This document shows, piece after piece, positions 1 through 63,931 of a stretch of DNA of 64,000 nt (its first letter is position 1; every line of letters starts with the position of its first letter). Under the pieces are notes generated by a model. That model searched no databases, was not told the origin of the DNA, and saw only the letters and a program-made list of their open reading frames with translations. The stretch comes from Mesoplasma lactucae ATCC 49193 (lineage in GTDB: Bacteria > Bacillota_I > Bacilli_A > Mycoplasmatales > Mycoplasmataceae). Made by a program: the position numbers and the translations under genes. The stretch covers positions 124,001 to 188,000 of the forward strand of contig NZ_CP023668.1 in the NCBI RefSeq assembly GCF_002441935.1. The letters are read 5' to 3'.

Positions 1-1536
1 GATTGAAATAGTCCAACTGTTTCTGGCTATAGCTATGGAAGAGATTATAAGAGTGCTTTATATTCTGGGGCTTATTTACCAGATAAAGTTAACCCTTCTA
101 CTTCAATTAGTTTAAAGAAAAATAATAACTACTTTAAAGCCGATGAAACTTACATTAAAAAAATAATCTTAAACTATCCAAAAAACCAGACACCTTCAAA
201 CTTAGCTTTTTTATTTGAAACTAACGATTTATCATTAGCACCAATTTCTTCAACTGATACTCACTCTTGATACAAATACATTGGTAAAGGAAATAATACT
301 GAAACTGCTAAATTTGGTGGAGTTCACGATTCATTCTTAGGAACTCCGTCGACTTCATTCTTACTTTACAATTATGGATATAAAACAAATCCTGATTCTA
401 AAGACCAAAAACCAGAAGACGTATTACAAAATCAAGTTTTAGCTCAACAATCAACAAGAGCTTTAATCTCATATGGAATGGATAGAAGTAAGGCTGCTAA
501 ATTCTTCTCACAAGAACTAGATTCTTCTAAACCATCATCCGCACCATCATCATTATTAAGAAACGTTTATACTACACCAAACTTAGTAAGTGATAATGGA
601 AAAGATTATGTTGAATATATTCAAGATGAATATTCAAAAGAATTTGGACAAAGTAAACCTTCAACTTCAGGATTTAACCCTAAAGGAGATGGAGTAATCT
701 TACAAGATGGTAGTGACGCTTATAAAGAAAATGACGAGTTCGCTTTAAAAACAATTACAGATCCTCAACTTAAACAACAATTCATTGATGCTAAAGAGAA
801 CTACGAAGCTAAAATGCAAATCTTAATGAAACAAGTTAGAAAAGATTCTAAACTTGGTGAAAACCAAACTGTTTCATTCAACTTCTTAGCAAATGGTTCT
901 GATAAAACCACTTTAAACCCAAGATTAAGAGACATGTTTGACTCATTTAGTAATCTTAAAAATAACCCGATTAAAATTAATGTTATGGAATCACAAGACA
1001 GTGGAGATTATTCTACTATTCAACGTACTCCAACTTGAAACATGATGATTGCTGGATGATCACCAGACTATGCCGATCCTTCAACATACTTAAATACAAT
1101 CGGATATGGTGGAGATTATGGAAGTTACAATAACTTAACAAAAATTATTTCAAAAGATAAAACAACTGGTAAATTAAAAGGAAACAATAAGGCTTTTGAT
1201 GCTTTAGCAACTGATTTACAAAGTTATGGCGATGCTTTAAATTTTGCAAATAAAGAATTTGATATCAACACCCGTTTAACAAGTTATTCAAAAGCTGAAA
1301 CCCTAGCTTTATATCAAAAACAATTTATTCTACCAATGTTTATTAAAACACCGGTAGAAGCGCCAGCACTTTCATACTTAGATCAATTCACAAGACCAAG
1401 TGTTGCTTATGGAACTTGCTTTACTAGAATGTCTGGAGTAAAAATGACTCCAAAACTTTGAACCAAAGAACAATATAACCAACATAAGGCCGAATGAGAA
1501 CAAGGCGTAACTGATGCCAATAAACCAAAACAATAA
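1..1536 (+). CDS. oppA: Oligopeptide ABC transporter substrate-binding protein, C-terminal part (5' end outside window)
   Basis: An open frame (TGA read as Trp) enters from the left edge and ends at TAA 1534-1536, giving 511 visible residues. It contains the stretch GWSPDYADPSTYL near residue 352, a hallmark of the C-terminal lobe of SBP family 5 (OppA/DppA) proteins. These are surface lipoproteins that hand peptides to an OppBCDF importer. The start, signal peptide and lipobox lie outside the window, so oppBCDF is probably upstream. A long hairpin terminator follows directly. The insert-rich, mollicute-type sequence makes the substrate uncertain; peptide is the family expectation. Confidence 0.85.
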
Positions 1537-1549
1537 TTAATAAAATGGA

Positions 1550-1600
1550 AATTATTCCAAAAAAGTTCAAAAAAAATGGAACTTTTTATTGGAATGATTT
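1550..1600 (+). terminator. Intrinsic terminator after oppA
   Basis: A long imperfect hairpin with arms ATTATTCCAA..AAAAGTTC and GAACTTTTTATTGGAAT is followed by a T-rich tract. It lies just past the oppA stop codon. Confidence 0.7.
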
Positions 1601-1676
1601 TTATTTGTAACTATTTCAAAATAAGAATATTATAAAAGTGTGGTTGTTAATCACATGTTAATTTATTTCATAATTT

Positions 1677-1682
1677 TATACT
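1677..1682 (+). promoter_or_regulatory. -10 box of candidate small RNA
   Basis: TATACT ends 5 bases before G1688, exactly where the closing helix of the candidate RNA begins. No convincing -35 box is visible. Confidence 0.5.
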
Positions 1683-1687
1683 TTAAT

Positions 1688-1848
1688 GTTAGGCGATAAA
1701 AATAATAATATTTTTGTCTTTGTGATATAAAACTCATTTTATAACTTGTTAACTATTTCCCTTAAAATTAAACGATTAAATCGTTCTTATCCGATGCCTA
1801 ACATCTAGTACTTCGAAGAACAGCTCTTTCCCGGCTGTTCTTTTTTTT
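1688..1848 (+). ncRNA. Candidate structured small RNA, family unknown
   Basis: This 161-base element lies in a 410-base gap between oppA and ftsK and has no coding frame. Its first bases GTTAGGC (1688-1694) pair perfectly with GCCTAAC (1796-1802), and the helix continues with GATAA against TTATC after a small bulge. An inner hairpin (AACGAT/ATCGTT) lies just inside. A strong terminator stem GAACAGC/GCTGTTC followed by eight T closes it at 1818-1848, and a -10 box sits correctly spaced in front. It is not recognisable as SRP RNA, tmRNA or RNase P by conserved motifs. A 6S-like RNA or a mollicute-specific RNA is possible. It could also be an ftsK leader, but the terminator argues for an independent transcript. 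Confidence 0.55.
1818..1848 (+). terminator. Terminator of the candidate small RNA
   Basis: Perfect stem GAACAGC (1818-1824) with GCTGTTC (1834-1840), extendable by AA/TT, followed by TTTTTTTT. Confidence 0.85.
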
Positions 1849-1946
1849 GCGTTTTTTTGAAAAATAGTTTCAGATAGAAACAATTAAGAAAATGGCGTAA
1901 AATCTAGTAAAATAGTTATTAAAGACTATGTAGGTGAAAGATAAAT

Positions 1947-4655
1947 ATGCGAAAAAAGAAAATTAAAGAAATTTCTGGGTCAAATACTGATGGGAGCATT
2001 TTGACTAGCAAGAATTATAACGATGATCGAACAATCATCTTTCAAACAGAGAAAAAACCTCACAAAAAAGATTCAATAGCCTGGTTAGTAGGCTCAATTA
2101 CCTTCTTTTTACTTTTAGTATTATCAGTTGGTAGGTTTTTAACAATAGGAGCATTTTTAGATGATATTTTCTTCAACTTCTTATTTGGTTGATTAAAATA
2201 TCCTGTTTATCTCTTATTATTTGCTTTTGATATCTCGATTTTGGTTGGAATTAAATTCAGAATGAAGAAAAGTTTTGTATTCATGATTCTAGCCATTACC
2301 TTTTCAATAGCATGAATTATTTCAACTTCATTATTATTGAACTTAGATGTTCATAAAGAAGATGGAATAAAGCTTTGAAATAAAGATATTTTTCCAAAAT
2401 CAGTTAGTGTCTACTCACAGAATTGATATGATAACTCAATTTTAGGTACAACCTTCCGAGACGAACCTGGACACAAAAAATATCTGATTTATCCAAGTTA
2501 TGGATATGTGAACTTATATCAAGGTGGAGGATTCATTGGAACTTTCTTAAGTGGAATCTTTGGATATTTAAGTTTACCCGGAAGCTTAGTTTTGGCTTTC
2601 TTCTGTTTATTCTTATCACTTGTTTGATTTTTAACAGGAACACCATTTTTCCTATTCTATTCAAAAGAAAAAAGAAAAGGAAAAAGAGTTCGTGTTTTAC
2701 CTTTAGCTTATAAAAATAATCCTCATGTTAATGGACAAGAAGCTGATAAAACTCCAAAACCATTTATTGAAGATGATGTTGAAAGAACAGATAGACCAAG
2801 ACAAATTGGTCCAAAGAAATCGTTAGCTGATAGTATTGCTTGAAATGAACCAGATGATGATGACTTAGAAACATTTTCAGTTTTAAGAGATAGTGATGAA
2901 ACTGATTATGAAAATGTTGGTAAAAAAATGTTAGAAGAACATGTTCCAGAAAAACCAGCACAACCAACAGTTAGTTTAGATACTAAAACTGATGAACCAA
3001 TTATTGATGATACTTTAGAAACATTTGATTCTTATACTCAAGATTCGATTCATGTTGATAATCTTGATGATTCAATCTTTTATGATGAAATTATGAAAGA
3101 TGAAGAACCAGAACAAAACGATAAAACTGAATATGATTCATTTACTTTCGATGATTTAGATAGTGAGACTCTTGCTACAATTCAACAATTAGAAGAAGAT
3201 GAAACTATTTCAAAAACAGTTGGTAATGACGCTTATCAATTACCAAGTTTAGATCTTTTAAATGATGTGAGAACTGATCCAAGAGTTATTAAACTAAATG
3301 AAGATAATGCCAGACAAAAAGCAGAAGCAATTAATCAAACTTTTGCTGAATTTAAAGTTAATGCTAAAGTTGTTAATACAATAATTGGTCCTGCTGTTAC
3401 TAAATTTGAAATTAAACCTGATAAAGGAACTAAAGCAAACTCAATTGCTAACTTAGAAGCTGATTTAAAACTTGCTTTAGCAACTCAAAATATTCGTATT
3501 GAATCACCAATTCCTGGTAAAAGTTTAGTTGGAATTGAGATTCCAAACGTTAAACCAACAATGGTTGGTTTAAAAGAAATCTTAAGAGATTTACCATCGA
3601 GTGATGCTGATGACAAACTAATCTTTGGATTAGGAAAAGACGTTGTTAATAAATCTATTTTTGGTGATATTCAAAAAATGCCTCACTTACTGGTAGCTGG
3701 AAGTACAGGTTCTGGTAAATCTGTTATGACTAATACTTTAATTACTTCAATTCTTTTAAGAGCAAAACCAAGTGAAGTTAAATTATTATTAATCGATCCA
3801 AAACAAGTTGAATTAGCGATTTATAGTGATGTTCCTCATATGTTAGCTCCTGTTATTTCAGATATGTCTAAAGCTACAAGAGCTTTAAATGTTGTTGTAG
3901 CTGAAATGGATCGTCGTTATAAATTATTTGCTGAAGGTCGTGCTAGAAACCTTGAAGGATATAATGCTAAACAAAAGGATCCAAAAGATAAAGTCCCATA
4001 CTATGTTGTTGTAATTGATGAACTTGCAGATTTAATGATTACTGGCGACAGAAAAGAAGTTGAAGATGCCATTCAAAGAATTACTCAGATGGGAAGGGCT
4101 GCTGGAATTCACTTAATAGTAGCAACTCAAAGACCTTCAGTTGATGTTATTACTGGAGTTATTAAAGCAAATATTCCAACCAGAATTGCTTTTAGAGTTT
4201 CTTCTGGAATTGATAGTCGAACAATTCTTGATGCATCTGGAGCTGAAAACTTAACTGGTAAAGGAGATATGTTATATCGTGCTCCAAATACTACTGATTT
4301 ATTACGTGCTCAAGGAGCTTATCTAAGTGATGAAGAAATTGATCGTGTTGTTGATTGAGTATGTCAACAACAAGATAAGAACTATAATAAAGCTTTTACA
4401 GAACTAAATAGCAAAGTTGCTAATAACAACGCTAATAATGGTAAAGAACATGATGAATTATTTGAAGAAGTTAAACAATTTGCTATTAATGAAGGAGCGA
4501 TTTCAACTTCATTAATTCAAAGAAAATTTAACATTGGTTATAATCGTGCTGCAAATATTGTTGATGATTTAGAAGCAAACCAAATTATTGGTCCACAAAA
4601 CGGTTCTAAACCAAGAGAAGTCTACTTAAAACCAGACCAAGAACGAAGCTTATAG
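1947..4655 (+). CDS. ftsK: DNA translocase FtsK/SpoIIIE
   Basis: The 902-residue protein moves DNA at the division septum. About four membrane segments lie in residues 45-230, followed by an acidic linker (residues 270-420). The motor has Walker A GSTGSGKS at 585-592 and Walker B VVIDELADL around 687-696, and ATQRPSVDVITG is the usual motor sequence. The last ~65 residues form the winged-helix gamma domain (DELFEEVKQFAINEGAIS...). The ATG at 1947 follows AGGTGAAAG. Several in-frame TGA codons encode Trp. The linker is short compared with E. coli FtsK and fits the SpoIIIE-like proteins of Firmicutes. A terminator follows at 4681. Confidence 0.95.
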
Positions 4656-10707: not shown

Positions 10708-10834
10708 GTTGAAAAAAGTTTCAACCGCTCTTTTTTATGTTAACAAGCAATTTTTAAGACTAAAGACAATTCAATTTGTTGAATGCTTTTAAATTCACAT
10801 AACAAGGCGAGTCTAGACTGGAGGAAATAGATAG
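10708..10834 (+). promoter_or_regulatory. 5' leader of rplU-prp-rpmA, possible L21 autoregulatory leader
   Basis: About 127 bases lie between the predicted start site and the rplU ATG, unusually long for this genome. It contains a hairpin ATTCAA-TTTG-TTGAAT and ends in the RBS TGGAGGAA. Firmicutes rplU operons are known to carry an L21 leader motif, so the position fits. I did not match the motif base by base. Confidence 0.5.
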
Positions 10835-19684: not shown

Positions 19685-19703
19685 AAAAGTGAAAAGAATA
19701 AAT

Positions 19704-19784
19704 AAGGGAGCTAGTAAACTGGCTGAGAGTTAGATGTGATCTAAGACCTATAACCTGATTTGGATAATGCCAACGTAGGAAAAT
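19704..19784 (+). ncRNA. TPP (thiamine pyrophosphate) riboswitch
   Basis: The THI-box landmarks appear in order: GGGAG at 19706, CTGAGA at 19723-19728, the ACCTGAT block near 19753, TGGATAATGCCA at 19761-19772 and ACGTAGGAA closing the element. This is the near-universal TPP-binding core. Two terminator-type hairpins follow before the transporter gene, so TPP most likely causes premature termination. Confidence 0.95.
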
Positions 19785-19838
19785 TTATTAAAAGATAAAT
19801 TTTTTTAAATGGCGCATTCTAATTTTGAATGCGTTTTT
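19781..19838 (+). terminator. Riboswitch expression platform with two hairpins
   Basis: AAATTTAT (19781-19788) pairs with ATAAATTT (19795-19802) and is followed by T's. CGCATTC (19813-19819) pairs with GAATGCG (19827-19833), followed by T5. The second is the more stable terminator; the first may be an alternative or part of the antiterminator. Confidence 0.75.
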
Positions 19839-19874: not shown

Positions 19875-20822
19875 ATGGTTTTAACAGATATTAAAAAAGA
19901 AAGTCTAATTAAAAAAACAAACTTAGGTTGAAAGTACTTTTTAAACATGAGCTGAAGTATTGTTGTTTATGCCTTAATTTTGGCTTTAACAATTGTTTTA
20001 AATATTGTCTATAATGATTCTTTAAAGACAAATTCTGGTGCTTTATATTATGTTTGAATTGTTGTAGAAAGTTTTGCTTTAATTGTCTTTTTAGCCTTTA
20101 TTGTAGTTGGTTTGAACACCATCAACTATAGCTGGTATGAATGAAAAGAAAAGTTAATTTATGCTTTTATTAGTTTAAATTTAATTAGAATAATTTATGT
20201 TATTAACTTTGCTGTTAAAAAAGATTATTGAACTTTTAAAATTGAAAAATGAACCACAATGGATTACACCTTAATTGCTATGAGTTATGCAATTTATATG
20301 ATCTTAACTTTTATTTGTAAACAATTAATACCAACTATTCCTATTTTATTTGTGAGTTTGAGCTTTGAATATATTGCTTTGTTCTTTATAGCTTTTATTA
20401 CTGGTTCATTTTTAAAAACCTTTGTAACTGGAATGTTATGTGGATTATCATTGTTATTTTTTCCATCAACTTACTTTATTAATTTTCCACAATTTCTTTT
20501 AGATTATTTAATCCCTAACCTTTGTGTTTCCTTAGCTTGTTTAGTGAACTTTACAAACGATAAACAAAAGAAAATTAGTAAGATGTTTACTTTTATGACT
20601 ATTCCTTATTTAGGAATTTATCTTTCAAGAGTTTTAGCTGGGGTTGTTTTTTATATAACTATGGCTTATCCTGGTTTTCCAGTTTTACTGTATTCTGCTA
20701 TCATAAATGGAATAAATTCCATGTTTGATTATTTAACCTTAAGTTTAATCACTCCAATTATCCTTTGAAGATTATTTTCTTTACAAAAACGATATAAAAA
20801 CAAAATAAGAACCATTAAATAG
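19875..20822 (+). CDS. thiT: ThiT-like thiamine ECF transporter S component with N-terminal extension
   Basis: The 315-residue integral membrane protein is controlled by the TPP riboswitch. The C-terminal ~190 residues (LTFICKQLIPTIP onward) have the six-helix S-component layout. FLLDYLIPNLCVSLACLVN and YPGFPVLLYSAIINGINSM resemble the ligand-binding helices of ThiT. The N-terminal ~130 residues add two or three extra TM segments (SIVVYALILALTIVLNIVY; YYVWIVVESFALIVFLAFIVVG), which canonical ThiT (~180 residues) lacks. It would work with a shared EcfA/A'/T module encoded elsewhere. Thiamine as substrate is inferred from both riboswitch and sequence. Confidence 0.85.
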
Positions 20823-22257: not shown

Positions 22258-25212
22258 ATGAAATATGAGATTGGGCAAATCGTTTTAATTAACGATAAGA
22301 ACTATATTGTTTTGGATTTTGAATTTGATAAAAGTGGAGATAAAAAAGCTCCAAAAATTGCTTTAGTTCAAAACTTAAACGATGCAAAAGATATTCAAAA
22401 AGTTAATGTTGAAAATCTTAAATCAGTTGATGGAGTTGGTAAAGTAGTTTCAAGAACTACTACTAAAACAGCTAAACCATCATCTTCAAAAAAAGCTGAC
22501 GTCAAAAAACCAGCTACAAAGAAAACAACAAATTCTAAAACCAAAACAAAAGTTAGCCAAGAAGAAAAAGATCGTTCAATTGCTGAATATTATTCAGATG
22601 AACAATTTAACAATTTCGGAAAAGATTCAGAAAAAAAAGATACCTCAAAATCTTCTTCAACTAAAAAAGTTGAAAAACCTGAAGCAAAAAAAGCAACTAA
22701 AAAAGTTGCTTCATCCGATAAAAAAGTAGTTGAAAAAAAAGTTGAAGTAAAAAAACCAGCTACAAAGAAAACAACTACCAAAACAACAACAACTAAAAAA
22801 GTTGAACCTAAAAAAACAGAAGTTAAAAAAGAAACTGTTAAAAAACCAGCGACCGTAAATGGAGATAGCAGTGAAATTTTATTTAACCCAGAAGCTGCTA
22901 AGAAAACTAACTTCCATGAAGAACGTGTAATTAAAGAAGAACAAAAAGCAGCCAAAAAAGATTTAGCTAAACAAGATGAAAAACTTAAAGCTGAAGCAAA
23001 AGCAATTGATAAAAGAACTGCTGAACTTGAAAAGAAAGCAGATAAAAAAGTAGTTGAAAAAAAACCTGCTAAAGCTAAAAAAGAAAAAGTTAAAAAAGCT
23101 AAAACCAAAAAAGCTGAAAAAGTAGAATCAAAAGAAACTAAAAAACCAGCTAAAAAAGAAAAGGCTGCTAAACCCGCTAAAGCTAAGAAGGCTAAAAAAG
23201 AAAAACCAATTAAAAAGGTTAAATTAGCTAATACTAGAAAACCTGTAGTTAAAGCAAAAGACGCTAACAAAGTTGATCCTAAAAAAGTAGATGCTGCAAT
23301 AGCGGAATTCTATAATGCTATGGATATGGAAAAAGTTGCTCCAAAAACTAATAAGAGTGAAAAATTAAAACCAACCGATCAAAAAGTCGAAGCAATTAAA
23401 AAACCAAAACCCGAAGAATTGAAACAAAAACCAGTTGAAAAATCTGCAAAAGATTATGACAAAATGGTTAAAGAACAACAAAAAGCAATTGATGAATTCT
23501 ATAGTAATGATTTATTCAATGAACCAGTTCAAGCAAGAACACCTAAAAAAGGTGGGGACTTATTAATTCAAGTTAATAACCAAGTTGATATTCAAACTTT
23601 ATCTTCAAATAATAAAAAGCCAGAAGCTAATTTAAAAAAAGAAGCTAATGAGCCAAAACTAAAAGAAGTTAAATCTACAACAACTTATGTTGCTCCGATT
23701 AATGTTACTGATGAAGATAACACTATTACTAAAAGCGATATTAAAAAAGAAAACCGTGAAATTGAAAAAATCGATCGTAAAACAAAAAGAGCTAATAGTA
23801 AATTAATTAGAGAAAATAAAAAGGCTGCAAAAAAAGCAGAACGTGTTGCTAAAGAACAAGCAAAACACATTAAAAAAGAATACAACGAACAACTAAAAGC
23901 TGAAACTAAAGAAATCAAAAAAGATGACCACGAAATCAAAAAAGACGTTAAAGAAATCAAAAAAGATGTCAAAAGCTTCGAAGTTGTAATTGAAAAAGCT
24001 GATAAGAAAATTACAAAAGCTCAAAAGAAAAATGATGAAGAAGTTAAGAAAGAAGTTAAAAAAGATAACGAACTTTCAAAACGTCAAACTCGTAAAGCTG
24101 TAAAAGAAGCTAAGAAACACGAAAAACAATTAGCTAAAGAAAACAAAAGATTTGATGATCATTTAAAAATGCATGATGGTGATGAAATTTGTTCTGAAAC
24201 TACTCATGGAAATAAAAAAGCGAAAAAAGATTTACATAAAGCTGTAAAAGAAAATCGTGAAGTTAACCATGACTTAGAAACTGAATCTAAAAAAGGTCAA
24301 AAAGAATTAGCAAAAGATGCTAAGAAAACTAATAAAGCCTTTGAAGAAAAAGCTAAGAAGCAAGAAGAACAAAAAATTAAAGCTGAAAAATTTGCAGATA
24401 AACAATTAGCACAAGCTGATGAAGTCAATGCAAAAGATAAAGCTAAAGAAAATAAAGAAGCTGCTAAATTAGCCAAAGCTCAAGCTAAAATTGATGCTAA
24501 GAAAGCAAAAAAAGAAGCCAAAAAAGCAAAAAAAGAAACTAGAGAAGCTAAAAAAGAAGCTGATGCAAGAGAATATCGTGAACACCAAGCAAAAGTTAAA
24601 AAACAACACAATGAAACTATCAATCCTACTAAGAAATCAGTAGACAAACAAAATGATGTTAAACCAGCTGTTGAAAAAACTATCGCTGAAACTAAAAAAG
24701 AAATGCCAATCGTTGATGAAACACCAATTGTTGAAGTTAAACAAATTAACATTAACAAAGAAATGAAAACTCAACCATGATTTACTAGTGAAAATCCAGG
24801 TCTTTCACCACAACCAGGTAAACGTAAAGCTGCTAAAAGAGTTAGAAAAGAAGATATCGCTAACTACTATAGTGCTCCAAAAATGGAAGTTGCTAAAGTA
24901 TTACCGTATAATGAAAAACAAAGAATTAAGAAAACTGAATTCTTACGCCATTATCCTTTAAAACTTAAAGCACCATATCCATATTCAAAACACCCAAAAT
25001 TAAAAACATTTAATAAAATTGGGTCTTTAGATGGATGGAAACCAATGGATCTATCTTCAATTAAACCTTCAGATAGACATTGAAAAAAACCTGAACCTGT
25101 TAAAAAAGAAGAAGCTAAAGTAATTAAAGCTGATAGTAAAATAACAGATGTTAAACCAAAAGGTGGAGATACTTGATATGATGAAATCTCTAACTTTAAA
25201 GCTAAAAAATAA
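22258..25212 (+). CDS. Large lysine-rich protein with small N-terminal beta domain and repeated aromatic motif
   Basis: The 984-residue protein has no signal peptide or membrane segment. Residues 1-60 look like a compact beta domain (KYEIGQIVLINDKNYIVLDFEF), in style like an SH3/KOW fold. From there to about 960 it is dominated by K, A, E, with PAKK and KKAEK histone H1-like runs and long charged helices. The short motif I-A/D-E/N-F/Y-Y-N/S recurs at about residues 108, 348, 411 and 867. The C-terminal ~140 residues are less repetitive (FLRHYPLKLKAPYPYSKHPKL). TGA codons near residues 841 and 942 are Trp. It lies between frr and argS with its own promoter and terminator. Function unknown; nucleic-acid binding or a cytoskeletal role is guesswork. 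Confidence 0.85.
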
Positions 25213-55240: not shown

Positions 55241-56124
55241 ATGAAAAAACTATTAAGTATTTTGGAGCAATTGGTTTAGCAACAACCACAACAAGTGCTG
55301 TTGTTGCTTGTGGAAATACTAGTACTAAATCAGAAATTCCAGACAGCGGTGATAATTCGAACAAAACAATTTCTGATTTAAAAAATAAAATTGATGGGCT
55401 AGATAAAGAAGTTGAAAATCTTCAAGGAAAACTTCAAAGCTCACAAGCAGAAAGAGATAAACTCCATACTGAAATTACTAAACTTCAAGCTCAAATTGAA
55501 GATTTAACTGACAAATTAATTGTGGCTATTAACGCTTTAGATAAAGCAGAAGGAATTATTGATAACAATAACTTTACCCTTCCAAATCAAAGTATTTTTG
55601 TAAACGATCAACTAACAATTGATAATGTTTATATAAATGGAGTTAATAAACCAATACCTGTTAGTGAATTAGAAGACTTTAAATTAACCACAACAAATAT
55701 TAGTGAAAATATTATTCCAGCAACAACTAGTCTAAACAACATCATTGTAAAAGATAAACCAGGACTTTTACTTGTTACAGCAACAGCAAAAGGATTTAAT
55801 CCGACAACCTTCAAATTAGAAGTTAAAAAATTAGGAACTTTAACACCAAAAGCTAATGGTTTAACTAAACAAGATAATGGTGAATATTCTTTAAATGTTC
55901 TTCTGAATGAAGCACCTTTATCAATTGAATTAGATAAAGATGTTAAGTTAACCACAACTGATAAAATCACTTACGATAATAAAATTTTAAATGTTACACC
56001 ATCAATAGATTCAAATTGAATTTCTATTTTAAGAATTGCTAGTGGAGATACTAAAGTTACAATTAATATTCATGGTTATGAACCATTAATCATTAATGTC
56101 TTAGACAATAGCAAAACTGCTTAA
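55241..56124 (+). pseudogene. Lipoprotein gene with 1-base frameshift in the leader
   Basis: ATG 55241 starts MKKLLSIL and then runs into TAG. Compared with ATTTTAGGAGC in the 53351 gene, the sequence here is ATTTTGGAGC, one A short. Restoring the frame gives GAIGLATTTTSAVVACGN (lipobox VVAC), a short coiled coil (LDKEVENLQGKLQSSQAERD), and two Ig-like modules to TAA 56122-56124, about 294 residues in all. The layout is a small version of the giant lipoprotein at 56504. It is either a pseudogene, a phase-off allele or a sequencing error. Confidence 0.82.
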
Positions 56125-56321: not shown

Positions 56322-56351
56322 AAAACAAAGACAGGATCTAAAAATGGTTTG

Positions 56352-56503: not shown

Positions 56504-59500
56504 ATGAAGAAATTTTTAAGTATATTAGGGGCAATTACTTTAACAGCAACTTCTACTAGTGGGGTTGTTTCTTGTGGGGTTACAACTATTAGTCAATTAC
56601 CAGATGATAATGATAATAATCTTGCTAACATGAGAAAAGAGATTGCACAACTTCGTGCAAGTAATAAAACCTTAACAGATGATTTAGCTTCTAAACAAGC
56701 TGACTTAAATAAAGCAGAAAGTGATCTTAAAGATACTAGAGCGAAACTAACTAAGGCACAATCAGACTTAAGCCAAAAACAAGCTGAAATTGATAGTTTA
56801 AAAGATAAAGTTCAATCTTTAACAAAACAATTAAGTGATTCAGAAGAAACAAATAAAACTCTACAAACAGAATTAACTAACACTAAAGAAGCTTTAGCTC
56901 AAAAAGAAAAAGAAGCAGAAGAATTAAAGGGCAAAGTTGCTAACCTAACAGGGCAACTTTCTGCAATGAAAGATTCTTATGAAGCTGCTATGGATTATAT
57001 TCGTTTCTTATTAGCCGTTAACTTCGATTTAAATGAAGCTAAAAATAAAGCAGAAGACCAATTACGACAAGCTAAAAAAGATAAAGCAGAAGCTCAAAAA
57101 AGAGCAAATGAATTAGATCAACAATTACAAGAGTCTAATCGTGAATTAAAAAAAGCAGAATCTCAAAGAGATGAAGCTCAACAAAGAGTTAGAGATTTAG
57201 AAGCTATTAATAATGAATTAACTGCTACAAATAAAACTCTTAGTGACTCACTAAAAAAAGCTCAAAAAGATCTTGCTAATGCTCAAACTGAAATCGATAG
57301 ATTAACTGAAGAAAATGGTAGATTAACTAGAGAACGTAATGAAGCAAAAGGTGAAGTTGCTACCAAACAAGCTGAAATCGATAGATTAACTAAAGAAAAT
57401 GGTCAATTAACTAGAGACAAAGAAACTTTAGAACATGAAAAAGACGAAGCTATTGCCGCACAAAAAGAAGCAGAACGCCAAAGAAATGAACTTCAAGGTC
57501 AATTAACTGAGGCTGAAAATAAATTAACTGAAGCTGAAAGAGAAAAAAATGCAGCAGATGAAAAAGTTAGTGGTTTAGAAAACCAAATTCATTCTAAAGA
57601 TGGACAAATTGCTGATTTAACCGATAAATTATCAGAAGCTAAAGAAGCCGCTAAAAAAGCTGATGAAGCTAAAGAAACAGCTGAACGTGAAAGAGACGAA
57701 CTTAAAGGCAAATTAGATGCTGCTAATAAAACCATTGGTGAAAAACAAGCTGAAATCGATAGATTAACTAATGAAAACGGTCAATTAACTAGAGACAAAG
57801 AAACTTTAGAACATGAAAAAGACGAAGCTGTTGCCGCACAAAAAGAAGCAGAACGCCAAAGAAATGAACTTCAAGGTCAATTAACTGAGGCTCAAGGCAA
57901 ATTAGATGCTGCTAATAAAACCATTGGTGAAAAACAAGCTGAAATCGATAGATTAACTAATGAAAACGGTCAATTAACTAGAGACAAAGAAACTTTAGAA
58001 CATGAAAAAGACGAAGCTGTTGCCGCACAAAAAGAAGCAGAACGCCAAAGAAATGAACTTCAAGGTCAATTAACTGAGGCTCAAGGCAAATTAGATGCTG
58101 CTAATAAAACCATTGGTGAAAAACAAGCTGAAATCGATAGATTAACTAATGAAAACGGTCAATTAACTAGAGACAAAGAAACTTTAGAACATGAAAAAGA
58201 CGAAGCTGTTGCCGCACAAAAAGAAGCAGAACGCCAAAGAAATGAACTTCAAGGTCAATTAACTGAGGCTCAAGGCAAATTAGATGCTGCTAATAAAACC
58301 ATTGGTGAAAAACAAGCTGAAATCGATAGATTAACTAATGAAAACGGTCAATTAACTAGAGACAAAGAAACTTTAGAACATGAAAAAGACGAAGCTGTTG
58401 CCGCACAAAAAGAAGCAGAACGCCAAAGAAATGAACTTCAAGGTCAATTAACTGAGGCTCAAGGCAAATTAGATGCTGCTAATAAAACCATTGGTGAAAA
58501 ACAAGCTGAAATCGATAGATTATCAGAAGCTAATGGTAAATTAACAACTGAAAGAGATGACTATAAAAATAAATGAGAAGAAGCTCAAAAAGATCTAGAC
58601 AAAACTAATAAATGACTTGAAGAAGCCCACAATAAAAATGTAACAATAACAAATGAACGTGATGAATTAAAAATTAAAGTTAATGATTTAACTAAAGACA
58701 AAGAAAACCTTCAAACTAGTCTTGATAACGAAAAAGCTGTTGTTGAAGGGCAAAAAACTCAAATTGAAAGTTTAGAAGAACAAATTCAAAGATTAAAAGA
58801 TAGTTCATCAACTTCTGATCAAGAAAAAACTGAAAAAATTAAACAACTTGAAGATGAAATAGCAAAACTTGAGAAAACTATTAGAGAACAAGGAACCGCT
58901 ATTTCAAACCTTGAAAATTCTTTACAAGAAAAAACTAATGAATTAAAAGAATCTGATAAGAAACTAAAAAAAGCTCAAGCTGACTTGGAACAATCTCAAC
59001 AAGAAGTCAGAACTCTAACCACTGAACGTAATGGGTTAAAACAACAAGTTCAAGATCTAGAAGGCAACTTAAGAGTTGCAAACCAAAAACTGGAAGAAAG
59101 TTCAGCAACAATTAAAAAATTACAGGACGAGGTATCTACTTTAAATATTAGAGTTAATTTTTTAGACAATCAACTTAAAGCTGCTGCTGCTGAAATTCTT
59201 AGATTAAATAAAGAATATGAGGAAGCTTGAAAGACAGTTCGCGACCTAATTCTTAAAACTCAAGAATTAGAACAAAAAATTAATAAACAAAAAGCTGAAC
59301 TTGAAAAAGCAGAAGCTGAAAATGAAGCTTTAAAAACACGTGCTGAAAAAGCGGAAGCAGAAGTAACTAGATTAACTGGTGAACTAAATGCTGCTAAAGA
59401 TGCACTTACAAAAGCAGGACAAACAATCACTGAAAAAGACCAAGAAATAACTAGACTAGGTAAAAAAATCACTGAACAAGAAACTGCAATCAAAAACTTA

Positions 59501-62500
59501 ACAAGTGAACGCGATTCTGCCCAAACACGTGCTGATTATTTAGATAATCAACTTAAATCAGCTGCTGCTGAAATTCTTAGATTAAATAAAGAATATGAGG
59601 AAGCTTGAAAGACAGTTCGCGACCTAATTCTTAAAACTCAAGAATTAGAACAAAAAATTAATAAACAAAAAGCTGAACTTGAAAAAGCAGAAGCTGAAAA
59701 TGAAGCTTTAAAAACACGTGCTGAAAAAGCGGAAGCAGAAGTAACTAGATTAACTGGTGAACTAAATGCTGCTAAAGATGCACTTACAAAAGCAGGACAA
59801 ACAATCACTGAAAAAGACCAAGAAATAACTAGACTAGGTAAAAAAATCACTGAACAAGAAACTGCAATCAAAAACTTAACAAGTGAACGCGATTCTGCCC
59901 AAACACGTGCTGATTATTTAGATAATCAACTTAAATCAGCTGCTGCTGAAATTCTTAGATTAAATAAAGAATATGAGGAAGCTTGAAAGACAGTTCGCGA
60001 CCTAATTCTTAAAACTCAAGAATTAGAACAAAAAATTAATAAACAAAAAGCTGAACTTGAAAAAGCAGAAGCTGAAAATGAAGCTTTAAAAACACGTGCT
60101 GAAAAAGCGGAAGCAGAAGTAACTAGATTAACTGGTGAACTAAATGCTGCTAAAGATGCACTTACAAAAGCAGGACAAACAATCACTGAAAAAGACCAAG
60201 AAATAACTAGACTAGGTAAAAAAATCACTGAACAAGAAACTGCAATCAAAAACTTAACAAGTGAACGCGATTCTGCCCAAACACGTGCTGATTATTTGGA
60301 TAATCAACTTAAAGCTGCCGCTAGTGAAATTCTTAAATTAAATAAAGAAATTGATGACTTAACTACTCTTACAGGTCAATTAATTATTAAGAATCAAGAA
60401 CAAGCAAATTTAATTAAGCAACAAGAAGCTGAAATTGAAGCTAATAAAGCAAAAATTAAAGAATTAGAACAACAAGCAATTCTTGATAAAGGAACAATTG
60501 AATCTTTAGGACAAGAACTTGAAACTGCTCAAAATAATCTAAAAGAAGCTATTAAAACTATTGGTGAAAAGGATGAAGAAATTTCTGGTTTAAATACTAA
60601 GATTGCTGAAAAAGACAAAGAAATTTTTGATCAAAAAACTACTATTGATAATTTAGAAAAACAAGTTGGTAAATTAACAAAAGACTTAGCAAAAGCTAAA
60701 GAAACACAAGATACTTTATCTAAAGAAATTAGTAGTTTAACTGCTGATAATTTAGCAAAAGACAAAGAAATCACTGATTTAAAAAGAACTAATGCTGATT
60801 TAGATGCTAGATTAACTGATGCTTTAAATAAAATTAAAGGATTAGAAAACCAAGCGACAATTGACAGAGATACAATTGAAGATTTAAGACATCAAAAAGA
60901 TGCTTTACAAGAAGAAGGAATTAAAGCTACTGAAGAAATTGATAGATTAACTTCAGAAGTTAATGACTTAAAAAATAAAGTTAGTGATTTAGAAGAACAA
61001 GTTGGACAAAAATTTGACAATATTAATGATTTAATTATTTATCGTGGTCAAACAGATACACCAAAAATCAAAATCAAAGGTTATAGTAAAGAACTTGATT
61101 GAGACGGATTTACTAATGCAGAATTAAAGGTCTCAACAAAAGAAGGTAATCCACAAGACCTTGTTTCAATTAATGAAAACAAAGTTACTGGATTAAAAGC
61201 TGGAACAACAACTCTTATCTTGAGTGCAGATCAATTCTCACCAAAAGAATTTAGTGTTACTGTAAAAGACATTGAAGATCCAATCACTCCAGATACTGGT
61301 GACAACAACGGATTAGAACCAACAACTCCAGTTCCAAATAATCCAAACAACAATAATCCATCTGTTACAAAAGCATATAAATTAGATTTATATGAAGACG
61401 AAATTAAAAACATTACTTTTGCTAAAAACGTTTCATTAAATGATAAAAACGTTTTAAACTCAAATAATAAAGTTGCTAAAACTTCAGAAGCTACAAACAT
61501 TTTAACAATTGAAGCTTTACAAGAAGGAACTGCAATTATTAATGTGCAATTAGTAGAATTCTATAATGTTGAAATTCAAGTAAATGTTAAATCAAGAACT
61601 GATGTTAACATTCCAACTGATGGTGGAAACTCAGGAATTACAAAAGATCCTAATAAAAATAATGAATATTCATTAGTGATGAAACAACATCAAACTAAAA
61701 ATATTAATTTAGGAGTTACTTTAAATAATCCTGAATTTAGTCAAACAAATATTTCACAACCTGGATTAACTAGTTTAGTTGAATCAAGTGTTAATGGAGA
61801 TATCTTAACTATTATTACTAATGAATATGGAACTGTTGATTTAACTATTAAAACAGTTGAACACCAACCAATCATTATTCATATCACCGTTGAACAAGAT
61901 GCCGTTGTAAAAGACCCATCTGAAACTGGAAATGAACCAGGTGAACTACACAAAGACAAAGAAAAACAAGGTGTCTACAACTTAGATATGTGAGTTGGCG
62001 ATCCTGCTAAAGTCTTTGAATTTGGAGACGGAATTAACTTTAATGATTGAGAATTTAATCCTGGTAATAAAGCTTATGTTCAAGCTTCAGTTAAAGGAAG
62101 CAAGTTAACTATTAAACCAGTTGCAATTGGTGACACTCAAGTTAGCTTACATAAAGTTGGATATATTGATATTGTTATTAACATTTCAGTTAAAGACAAA
62201 GCTACAACTAAACCAACTGGTCCAAACTTAACACCAGATAAGGACGGAACTTATATTTTAAATACTTATGTTGGAATTACAAAAGATATTACTTTTGATG
62301 AATCTATTAATTTAAGTTCTAATGTAGCTAATGTTAACGTTGCAAATAATGGAAACAACGAAAACATAACTTATAGAAAAGATAAGAATGTTTTATCTGT
62401 TACTGGTAAAGTAGCTACAAATAACAATCCTGTTATCATTACAGTTCAATATCCTGGATATGATGAAATTACTATTAAGGTAAATGTTCAAAAACTTGAT

Positions 62501-63931
62501 GTTCCAACAGTTACAGTTCCAGATAACAATCCAGGATGAAATAACAATGGAAATAATCAATATACATTAAATATGTTTAAAGGTGATAGTCAAACTATTA
62601 GTTTTGGTTTAATTGATTTACCTAAAAAAACCGCTTTAACTAATAGTGACCCTAATGTTGTTGATGCACGTATTGAAGGAAAATTTGCCTTAAATAACCT
62701 AGTTGTTATAGATGCTAAAAAGACTGGAAATTCTATCATAACTGTTAAAAAAGAAGGTATTGAAACTGTAACAATTAATGTTTTTGTTACTGAAAAACAA
62801 ACAATCAAAATCGATGATAATAAATCAGACAATAATAACTTAACTGATGGTGTAGATGAATTCCACAAGAAGCTAAGCATTTATCAAGGAACTTCTGACA
62901 CATTTAACTTCGGTACATCAATTACTTCTGATAATCTAAAAAACACAAATAATACTATCGCTTCAATAGAAGCCTTGGGAGATGTTGTTAAAGTAAATGC
63001 TTTGAAAACTGGGACAACAAAAATTACTATTACAAAACGTGGATTTAATGACTTAACAATTGATGTTACTGTTTTACCAACAAGAAATATCCCAGATGAA
63101 CCAATCGGAGATATTGATGGATCAAATAACCATTACTCAATGATTATTGATGTTGAAGATACTAATAAGATAACTTTCCCACATGTTGATTTAACTAATG
63201 GAAAAATCAGCGTTGTTGATATAGACCAAAATACAAAAGCAAAACACGTATCTTATAAAGTTGATAAAAATAACTTAAGCGTTACTGGATTATCAAAAGG
63301 AAAATCAAAAATGACTATTAATGTTCCTGGTTATAATGAAATCACAATTGATATCACTATTAATCAAAAACAAATGATTCCAGAAGGTGGAGGAGTTATT
63401 CCAAGTGGTGATGGATACAATGTAACAATGAGACCAAATGTTCACCAAAAATTTGATTTAGGAAATATTAGTGGGTTAACTCAAAAAGATGTTGTCTTTG
63501 ATTCAAACTATGTAATTGCTAGATTAGATGGAAATACTTTAGATGTTTATACTCTTCAAACTCCAACTGATAGAACAACAATTACTATTAAGAAAAAAGG
63601 ATATGAAGATCTAAAAATTAATATTAGAATCCTTAATACTCCACTTGGAAAAGTTACTATGAGTACTAATAAGGTAGACTTAAAAGTTGGTGAATCACAA
63701 ACTATTGAAATCACAAACTGAACAACTTTAGTAACTGGTTATGATTTAACAATGAATAATGTAAGAGATGATCAAGGAAGAAGAATTCAAACTAATCCTT
63801 ATTACGTTGTTCAAGTTCAAGATCACGGTCAAGGTAAAATTCAATTAACTGGAATGAAACCTGGAACTTCTGAACTTACTGTTTCATTTAACGGTGGTTA
63901 TTCAACTGTAAAGATTACTGTAACAAAATAA
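56504..63931 (+). CDS. Giant coiled-coil lipoprotein with tandem repeats and Ig-like modules
   Basis: The 2475-residue lipoprotein has leader MKKFLSILGAITLTATSTSG with lipobox VVSC (Cys24). Residues ~40-1505 are an almost uninterrupted coiled coil (heptad L/I with E/K/Q/A), including four identical 63-residue units and three identical 126-residue units. From ~1505 to the end there are about eight beta-rich Ig-like modules of ~100-120 residues, each beginning with Y-x-L-x-M/L-x-x-x-Q/D and ending T-I-x-V, joined by P/N/G/D-rich linkers. One frame is open to TAA 63929-63931 with TGA as Trp. RBS AAAGGAAA. A rod presenting Ig modules away from the membrane is the natural reading; adhesion to host cells is inference. 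Confidence 0.9.
57707..58521 (+). repeat. 189-bp tandem repeat array (4 full copies plus partial)
   Basis: Units begin at 57707, 57896, 58085, 58274 and 58463 (partial, to about 58521). Each full unit encodes 63 residues starting GKLDAANKTIGEKQAEIDRL. The four full copies appear identical at the DNA level. A diverged unit lies just upstream at about 57367-57520. Confidence 0.95.
59192..60325 (+). repeat. 378-bp tandem repeat array (3 copies)
   Basis: Units start at 59192, 59570 and 59948, and a fourth start at 60326 diverges at once. Each encodes 126 residues (EILRLNKEYEEAWKTVRDLI at the start, with one TGA Trp). Copies look identical apart from a few bases at the outer edges. Confidence 0.95.

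Follow-up and report, generated by a model that had tools for sequence, protein, structure and literature searches.

Close to the end of the window (the whole 64,000-nucleotide stretch of DNA analysed here), a single gene encodes a lipoprotein of 2475 residues that combines a very long heptad rod, exact tandem arrays and an Ig-like tail. The locus raises the question of how such a chain could be arranged at the surface of a cell, and how its length could change. A sequence-only reading had envisaged a straight stalk carrying Ig modules. Here we find that the rod and the arrays hold up well, while the topology is probably better described by an out-and-back antiparallel hairpin, which we infer to be the likeliest arrangement of the rod, with a probability of roughly 0.57. 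The features on which the argument depends are the following.

56504..63931, + strand: lipoprotein gene, 2475 aa, a single frame in genetic code 4
56504..56575, + strand: lipoprotein signal peptide up to lipobox Cys24 (NF038029)
56603..61039, + strand: proline-free coiled-coil rod with a single register break, aa 34-1512 (COILS-type score and Fourier phase)
56603..58795, + strand: N-arm of the rod, aa 34-764 (731 aa; register analysis)
57351..57542, + strand: earlier copy of the 189-bp unit, since diverged (95.6% identity across its central 160 bp)
57705..58522, + strand: array 1, 189-bp unit (63 aa, 9 heptads), 4.33 copies, zero mismatch (self-comparison, w[i]=w[i+189])
58613..58891, + strand: central cassette, about aa 704-796, common to two paralogous rods (paralogue comparison)
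58796..58819, + strand: sole register break of the rod, the turn KDSSSTSD at aa 765-772 (register analysis; AlphaFold loop 767-771)
58820..61039, + strand: C-arm of the rod, aa 773-1512 (740 aa; register analysis)
59183..60297, + strand: array 2, 378-bp unit (126 aa, 18 heptads), 2.95 copies, zero mismatch (self-comparison, w[i]=w[i+378])
61043..63928, + strand: about ten bacterial Ig-like modules, aa 1514-2475 (alignment, AlphaFold of one module, fold matches and profile matches)

The lipoprotein gene, its setting and its Ig-like tail

The frame is open throughout under translation table 4 only, with ten TGA codons read as Trp. Residues 1-24 score 31 bits against the mollicute lipoprotein signal model NF038029 (LP_plasma), above its cut-off of 24, and the product is best explained, judging from its sequence, as a membrane-anchored surface lipoprotein of a wall-less bacterium, probably of the family Mycoplasmataceae in the GTDB sense. 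About a dozen lipoprotein genes lie in a row around it, with an HU-type gene on one side and cinA-recA on the other. The genome has no clear MreB gene: its sole match to the family is a weak one whose start sequence marks it as DnaK, which makes it unlikely that the organism is a helical spiroplasma. Within the 280-bp leader of the lipoprotein gene, the 10-mer CAAAGACAGG is found twice, at 56326 and 56416 (90 bp apart), and this 10-mer occurs nowhere else in the window; an Rfam search at the leader returned no match. The lipoprotein gene immediately upstream (55241-56124) encodes a short coil and Ig-like modules and has a frameshift within its signal-peptide codons, so that start and body are in different frames; decay to a pseudogene, a sequencing error or phase variation could each explain this. 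Elsewhere, we noted a TPP riboswitch (19694-19799, +) ahead of a gene for a membrane protein at 19875-20822, an L21 leader at 10713-10824, and a 984-aa protein rich in Lys, Glu and Ala (22258-25212, +) with several degenerate tandem repeats of 21-48 bp.

The tail had been described as about eight Ig modules. Their Ig-like nature stands and the number does not, as we count about ten, with the fold predicted for one and the rest assigned by alignment, which gives 75-95 residues for each and linkers rich in Asn, Gly and Pro. AlphaFold, run on one module together with its siblings, yielded a seven-strand all-beta domain (pLDDT 75.7) that matches Ig-like domains, such as the Ig domain of the lambda tail-tube protein gpV (TM 0.64), as an Ig-like beta-sandwich should. 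Pfam Big_2 (PF02368) is absent among the best 25 of 36 families for the 2475-aa protein, and genome-wide it is found only at C1:529265. Matches to the Ig region occur in 4 of 198 genomes of the order (E<=0.001), and relatives possess Ig-like lipoproteins that do not have this rod. The only congener examined contains no homologue of the Ig region; its syntenic recA-cinA locus carries other lipoproteins, and the contig ends there. A scan of contigs with the Ig region, from which records of the organism's own lineage were possibly left out, found no relative.

A continuous coiled coil with one central break and two exact arrays

A COILS-type score (MTIDK table) describes the rod as a single continuous coiled coil with one register change at aa 769. 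Because this method still reports coiled coil along half of a shuffled sequence of identical composition, we place the weight on the matrix-free Fourier phase rather than on coil probability. The phase lies at 1.1-1.35 residues to about aa 720 and at 0.6-0.8 after aa 769, and within each stretch (aa 34 to ~720 and 769-1503) it is steady to ~0.2 residue, with peak periods of 3.4995 and 3.5005 and an amplitude at least 10 times the shuffled mean. Not one of the 1479 rod residues is proline, and the one break falls mid-rod, with 731 residues before the turn and 740 after it. The lipoprotein signal and this almost unbroken coiled coil thus bear out the earlier description of a rod-like lipoprotein. 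An identity with SMC/Rad50 was considered and rejected (239.6 bits against a cut-off of 567, over coiled coil only, with the genome's own SMC encoded elsewhere), and matches to ATG16, tropomyosin and SMC were judged to reflect coiled-coil bias.

The genome encodes rods of graded length, namely 192 residues in L093 (410 aa), about 345 in L002 (1691 aa, directly downstream), about 766 in L094 (907 aa, 1031-3754, - strand) and 1479 in the 2475-aa protein. L094 and L002 each have one register change, at the homologous stretches INSADKND and INNSDKND, with arms of 379/382 and 158/180 residues, respectively. At the DNA level the two match only over a 230-bp cassette around the turn (75% identity), their arms having diverged, and the rod of the 2475-aa protein has a weaker version of the same cassette. 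A profile built from the three cassettes finds the cassettes in this genome and a partial match in the short upstream lipoprotein; among 59 relatives it gave no convincing match, only a weak one to a different, shorter coil in another genus.

Both arrays proposed earlier (4 x 189 bp and 3 x 378 bp, nearly identical inside each) turned out to be exact, over 818 bp and 1115 bp; TRF was also run on the window. Neither array contains a single internal difference, synonymous sites included, which supports the claim that they expanded recently. Since the units correspond to 9 and 18 heptads, the register is kept at every junction, as had been argued from the unit lengths, and coiled-coil prediction passes straight through both arrays at all of them. 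The older copy of the 189-bp unit lies two units upstream of array 1, 378 bp before an exact copy, and the 837-kb genome holds no further copy. In our proposal, tandem duplication of 9- and 18-heptad blocks would recently have enlarged both arms, lengthening the stalk without breaking the heptad register, and recombination could reverse the process, so that rod length would be expected to vary in populations. As an idea only, 126 residues of two-stranded coil span ~18.7 nm, on the order of one superhelical turn, and 63 residues ~half of that; supercoil geometry, and not register alone, may dictate the unit sizes. Separately, the C-arm of L094 has its own repeat at 126-residue spacing (80.5% over 390 bp), with a near copy in the N-arm, and the 18-heptad unit thus recurs in a rod of different sequence.

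Short-read assembly is known to struggle with exact tandem arrays of this size (0.8 and 1.1 kb), and copy errors made in assembly could have produced perfect repeats. We regard such an artefact as highly improbable here, because the genome is in a single contig and the unit lengths preserve both frame and heptad register in both arrays. Real earlier duplications are also recorded in the older diverged copy, at the same spacing, and in the diverged repeat of L094 at 378-bp spacing.

Hairpin or straight stalk

If the rod folds as an out-and-back hairpin, the chain would leave the membrane at Cys24 and extend outward as a ~730-residue helix, reverse at the short, conserved mid-rod loop, which would form the distal tip, and return as another helix, of about 740 residues, zipped antiparallel to the outgoing one. 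Such a stalk would be about 110 nm long (0.1485 nm per residue), with the ten Ig-like modules hanging from its base, near the membrane. We favour this arrangement, and judge the straight stalk carrying Ig modules to be the less likely shape, because the single mid-rod break is conserved, the cores of the two arms are complementary and AlphaFold predicts a hairpin.

When a rod folds back at its turn, core residue i faces residue C-i, and we scanned all register-compatible values of C for matches between polar core positions. Of 115 values for the 2475-aa protein's rod, i+j=1543 ranks first, and the offset that corresponds to it, +6 from the loop, ranks first of 84 in L094 and third of 24 in L002. 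Shuffling of heptads gave p = 0.0004 for the 2475-aa rod, 0.0006 with the array copies collapsed, 0.001 when the loop neighbourhood was also removed, and 0.022 without any array residue; the corresponding values were 0.0014 for L094 and 0.12 for L002. Restricting the test to the central pairing gave p = 0.0017 for both the 2475-aa rod and L094, 0.18 for L093, and no core signal in the rods of L002 (0.69) and L109 (0.78), which counts against the hairpin. In another genus, the orthologous coiled-coil lipoproteins L098 (2017-4413, - strand; 798 aa) and L102 (784 aa), which are 49% identical, gave 0.06 and 0.10, and the tropomyosin control gave 0.63. Combined by hand with Fisher's method, the central-pairing p values come to about 2e-4. 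SMC arms were uninformative as a positive control, since they are short with many register breaks and leave the test little power. The same central antiparallel pairing ranks second in L098 (C=527) and first in L102 (C=499), though weakly in both.

AlphaFold, given aa 600-939 alone, returned two helices joined by a 5-residue loop at 767-771 (pLDDT 93.4, pTM 0.59); as it was run on one chain, the choice of a homodimer was closed to the model. The nearest solved structure to this hairpin is the stalk of PrgA (Z 19.1, rmsd 5.4, 340/340 residues), and the other close structures, a chemoreceptor and the arms of Smc and Rad50, are likewise out-and-back helices. Because matches between long helices come cheap, we treat these as consistent with a hairpin rather than decisive.

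In a parallel, in-register coiled coil, a residue at g attracts the e' residue five places on; SMC arms are antiparallel and tropomyosin is parallel. By this measure the charges point the other way. With arrays collapsed, the g-e' (i to i+5) charges of the 2475-aa rod are attractive at -0.134 per pair (z about -3.6 to -3.7; -4.25 pooled over three rods), which places it between 16 SMC arms (-0.027, SD 0.048) and tropomyosin (-0.33), and the antiparallel e-e' and g-g' pairings show no attraction. Hairpin pairing would, in addition, bring together some Lys-Lys or Lys-Arg pairs in the core. These charges, together with Ile, Leu and Asn at a and Leu at d, would suit a parallel in-register homodimer, in which the stalk would be straight, hinged at its midpoint and about 220 nm long and would carry the Ig modules at its distal end, as in streptococcal M proteins. 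Yet a parallel dimer leaves unexplained the position of the sole break, central in the two longest rods and close to central in the third, and the appearance of the antiparallel core match at one offset. The parallel-type charge signal and the lack of antiparallel charge attraction hold our estimate for the hairpin at the level given above, keep the parallel dimer as a live rival that we consider distinctly less probable, and leave room for hairpins that pair further, for example with two hairpins joining into a four-helix bundle in the manner of chemoreceptor dimers. A bundle of this kind could combine antiparallel core matching with a measure of parallel charge pairing; both signals are present, and the best fold matches include a Thermotoga chemoreceptor (Z 16.1, rmsd 7.2 over 309 residues). 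Long helices give unspecific fold matches, though, and we think a bundle improbable. The position of the Ig modules follows the model, at the base of the stalk in a hairpin and at its tip in a parallel dimer.

The hairpin, if correct, has consequences for how the gene can evolve. Pairing at i+j=1543 puts array 1 opposite array 2, so the copy numbers of the two arms should co-vary, with two 63-aa units needed for each 126-aa unit to keep the arms flush. Two gene segments far apart would then have to grow in step for the length to change, which poses a directly testable evolutionary puzzle, and the obvious candidate for a binding or turn-forming part would be the conserved tip cassette. The idea that extra copies are exactly balanced between the arms was dropped, because the outcome depends on how partial copies are counted. 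More tentatively, and with the odds somewhat against it, these proteins might represent a class of mollicute lipoproteins in which an antiparallel hairpin stalk zips onto itself, carries a conserved tip cassette in mid-sequence and has both arms re-sized by whole-heptad duplication. By analogy, the stalk may serve as an adjustable spacer, a shield or an adhesive stalk.

Relation to known surface stalks

The closest structural parallel is enterococcal PrgA (6z9l), whose protease domain is held up by a stalk about 40 nm long (PMC10588982). On the hairpin reading, the two would share an out-and-back helical surface stalk, and the AlphaFold hairpin aligns over 340/340 residues to chain positions 134..698. 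In contrast to PrgA, the 2475-aa protein has no protease domain at the tip and no LPXTG, is lipid-anchored, carries tandem arrays and an Ig tail, and has a predicted stalk 2-3 times longer; it scores 40.3 bits against the PrgA surface-exclusion family model TIGR04320, below the cut-off of 70. In the streptococcal antigen I/II family, the N-terminal part of the chain probably pairs with the part that follows the tip domain, placing the tip in mid-sequence (PMC7726212). The hairpin reading would likewise put the tip in mid-sequence, but the 2475-aa protein does not have the polymer-adhesin tip domain, and both of its arms are heptad helices. Among mollicute proteins, the NCBIfam 'helix-rich protein' of Mycoplasma (TIGR04523) resembles it as a long helical protein, with a score of 191 bits that reflects coiled-coil bias and falls below the 270-bit cut-off. 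The Vsa surface lipoproteins of Mycoplasma pulmonis likewise come from a mollicute and contain tandem repeats, and the repeat number determines both shielding and adherence; these repeats are 10-19 aa long and lie at the C-terminus in up to 60 copies (PMC6080569), whereas the blocks here are coiled coil of 63 and 126 aa.

In Periscope Proteins (SasG, Rib, Sgo_0707), near-identical long tandem repeats form a surface stalk and their copy number sets its length; the defining repeats are longer than 50 residues and at least 80% identical (PMC8201768). The 63-aa and 126-aa units, with 100% identical DNA, lie well within these limits. Periscope repeats are folded domains in monomeric rods, and the definition omits coiled-coil multimeric stalks such as TAAs (PMC9704523). 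Here, the units are slices of one coiled coil instead of individually folding domains in a monomeric single-chain rod, and the 2475-aa protein therefore falls outside the class, although by analogy it may work like a periscope protein. Where the known length-variable periscope stalks are built of folded domains, this one, if our reading is correct, would change length by whole-heptad slices of a continuous coil, and it would do so in a cell with a very small genome that encodes rods of graded length. Its unusual length, and the ease with which it could be re-sized, would set the predicted stalk apart within a kind of surface stalk that is already known.
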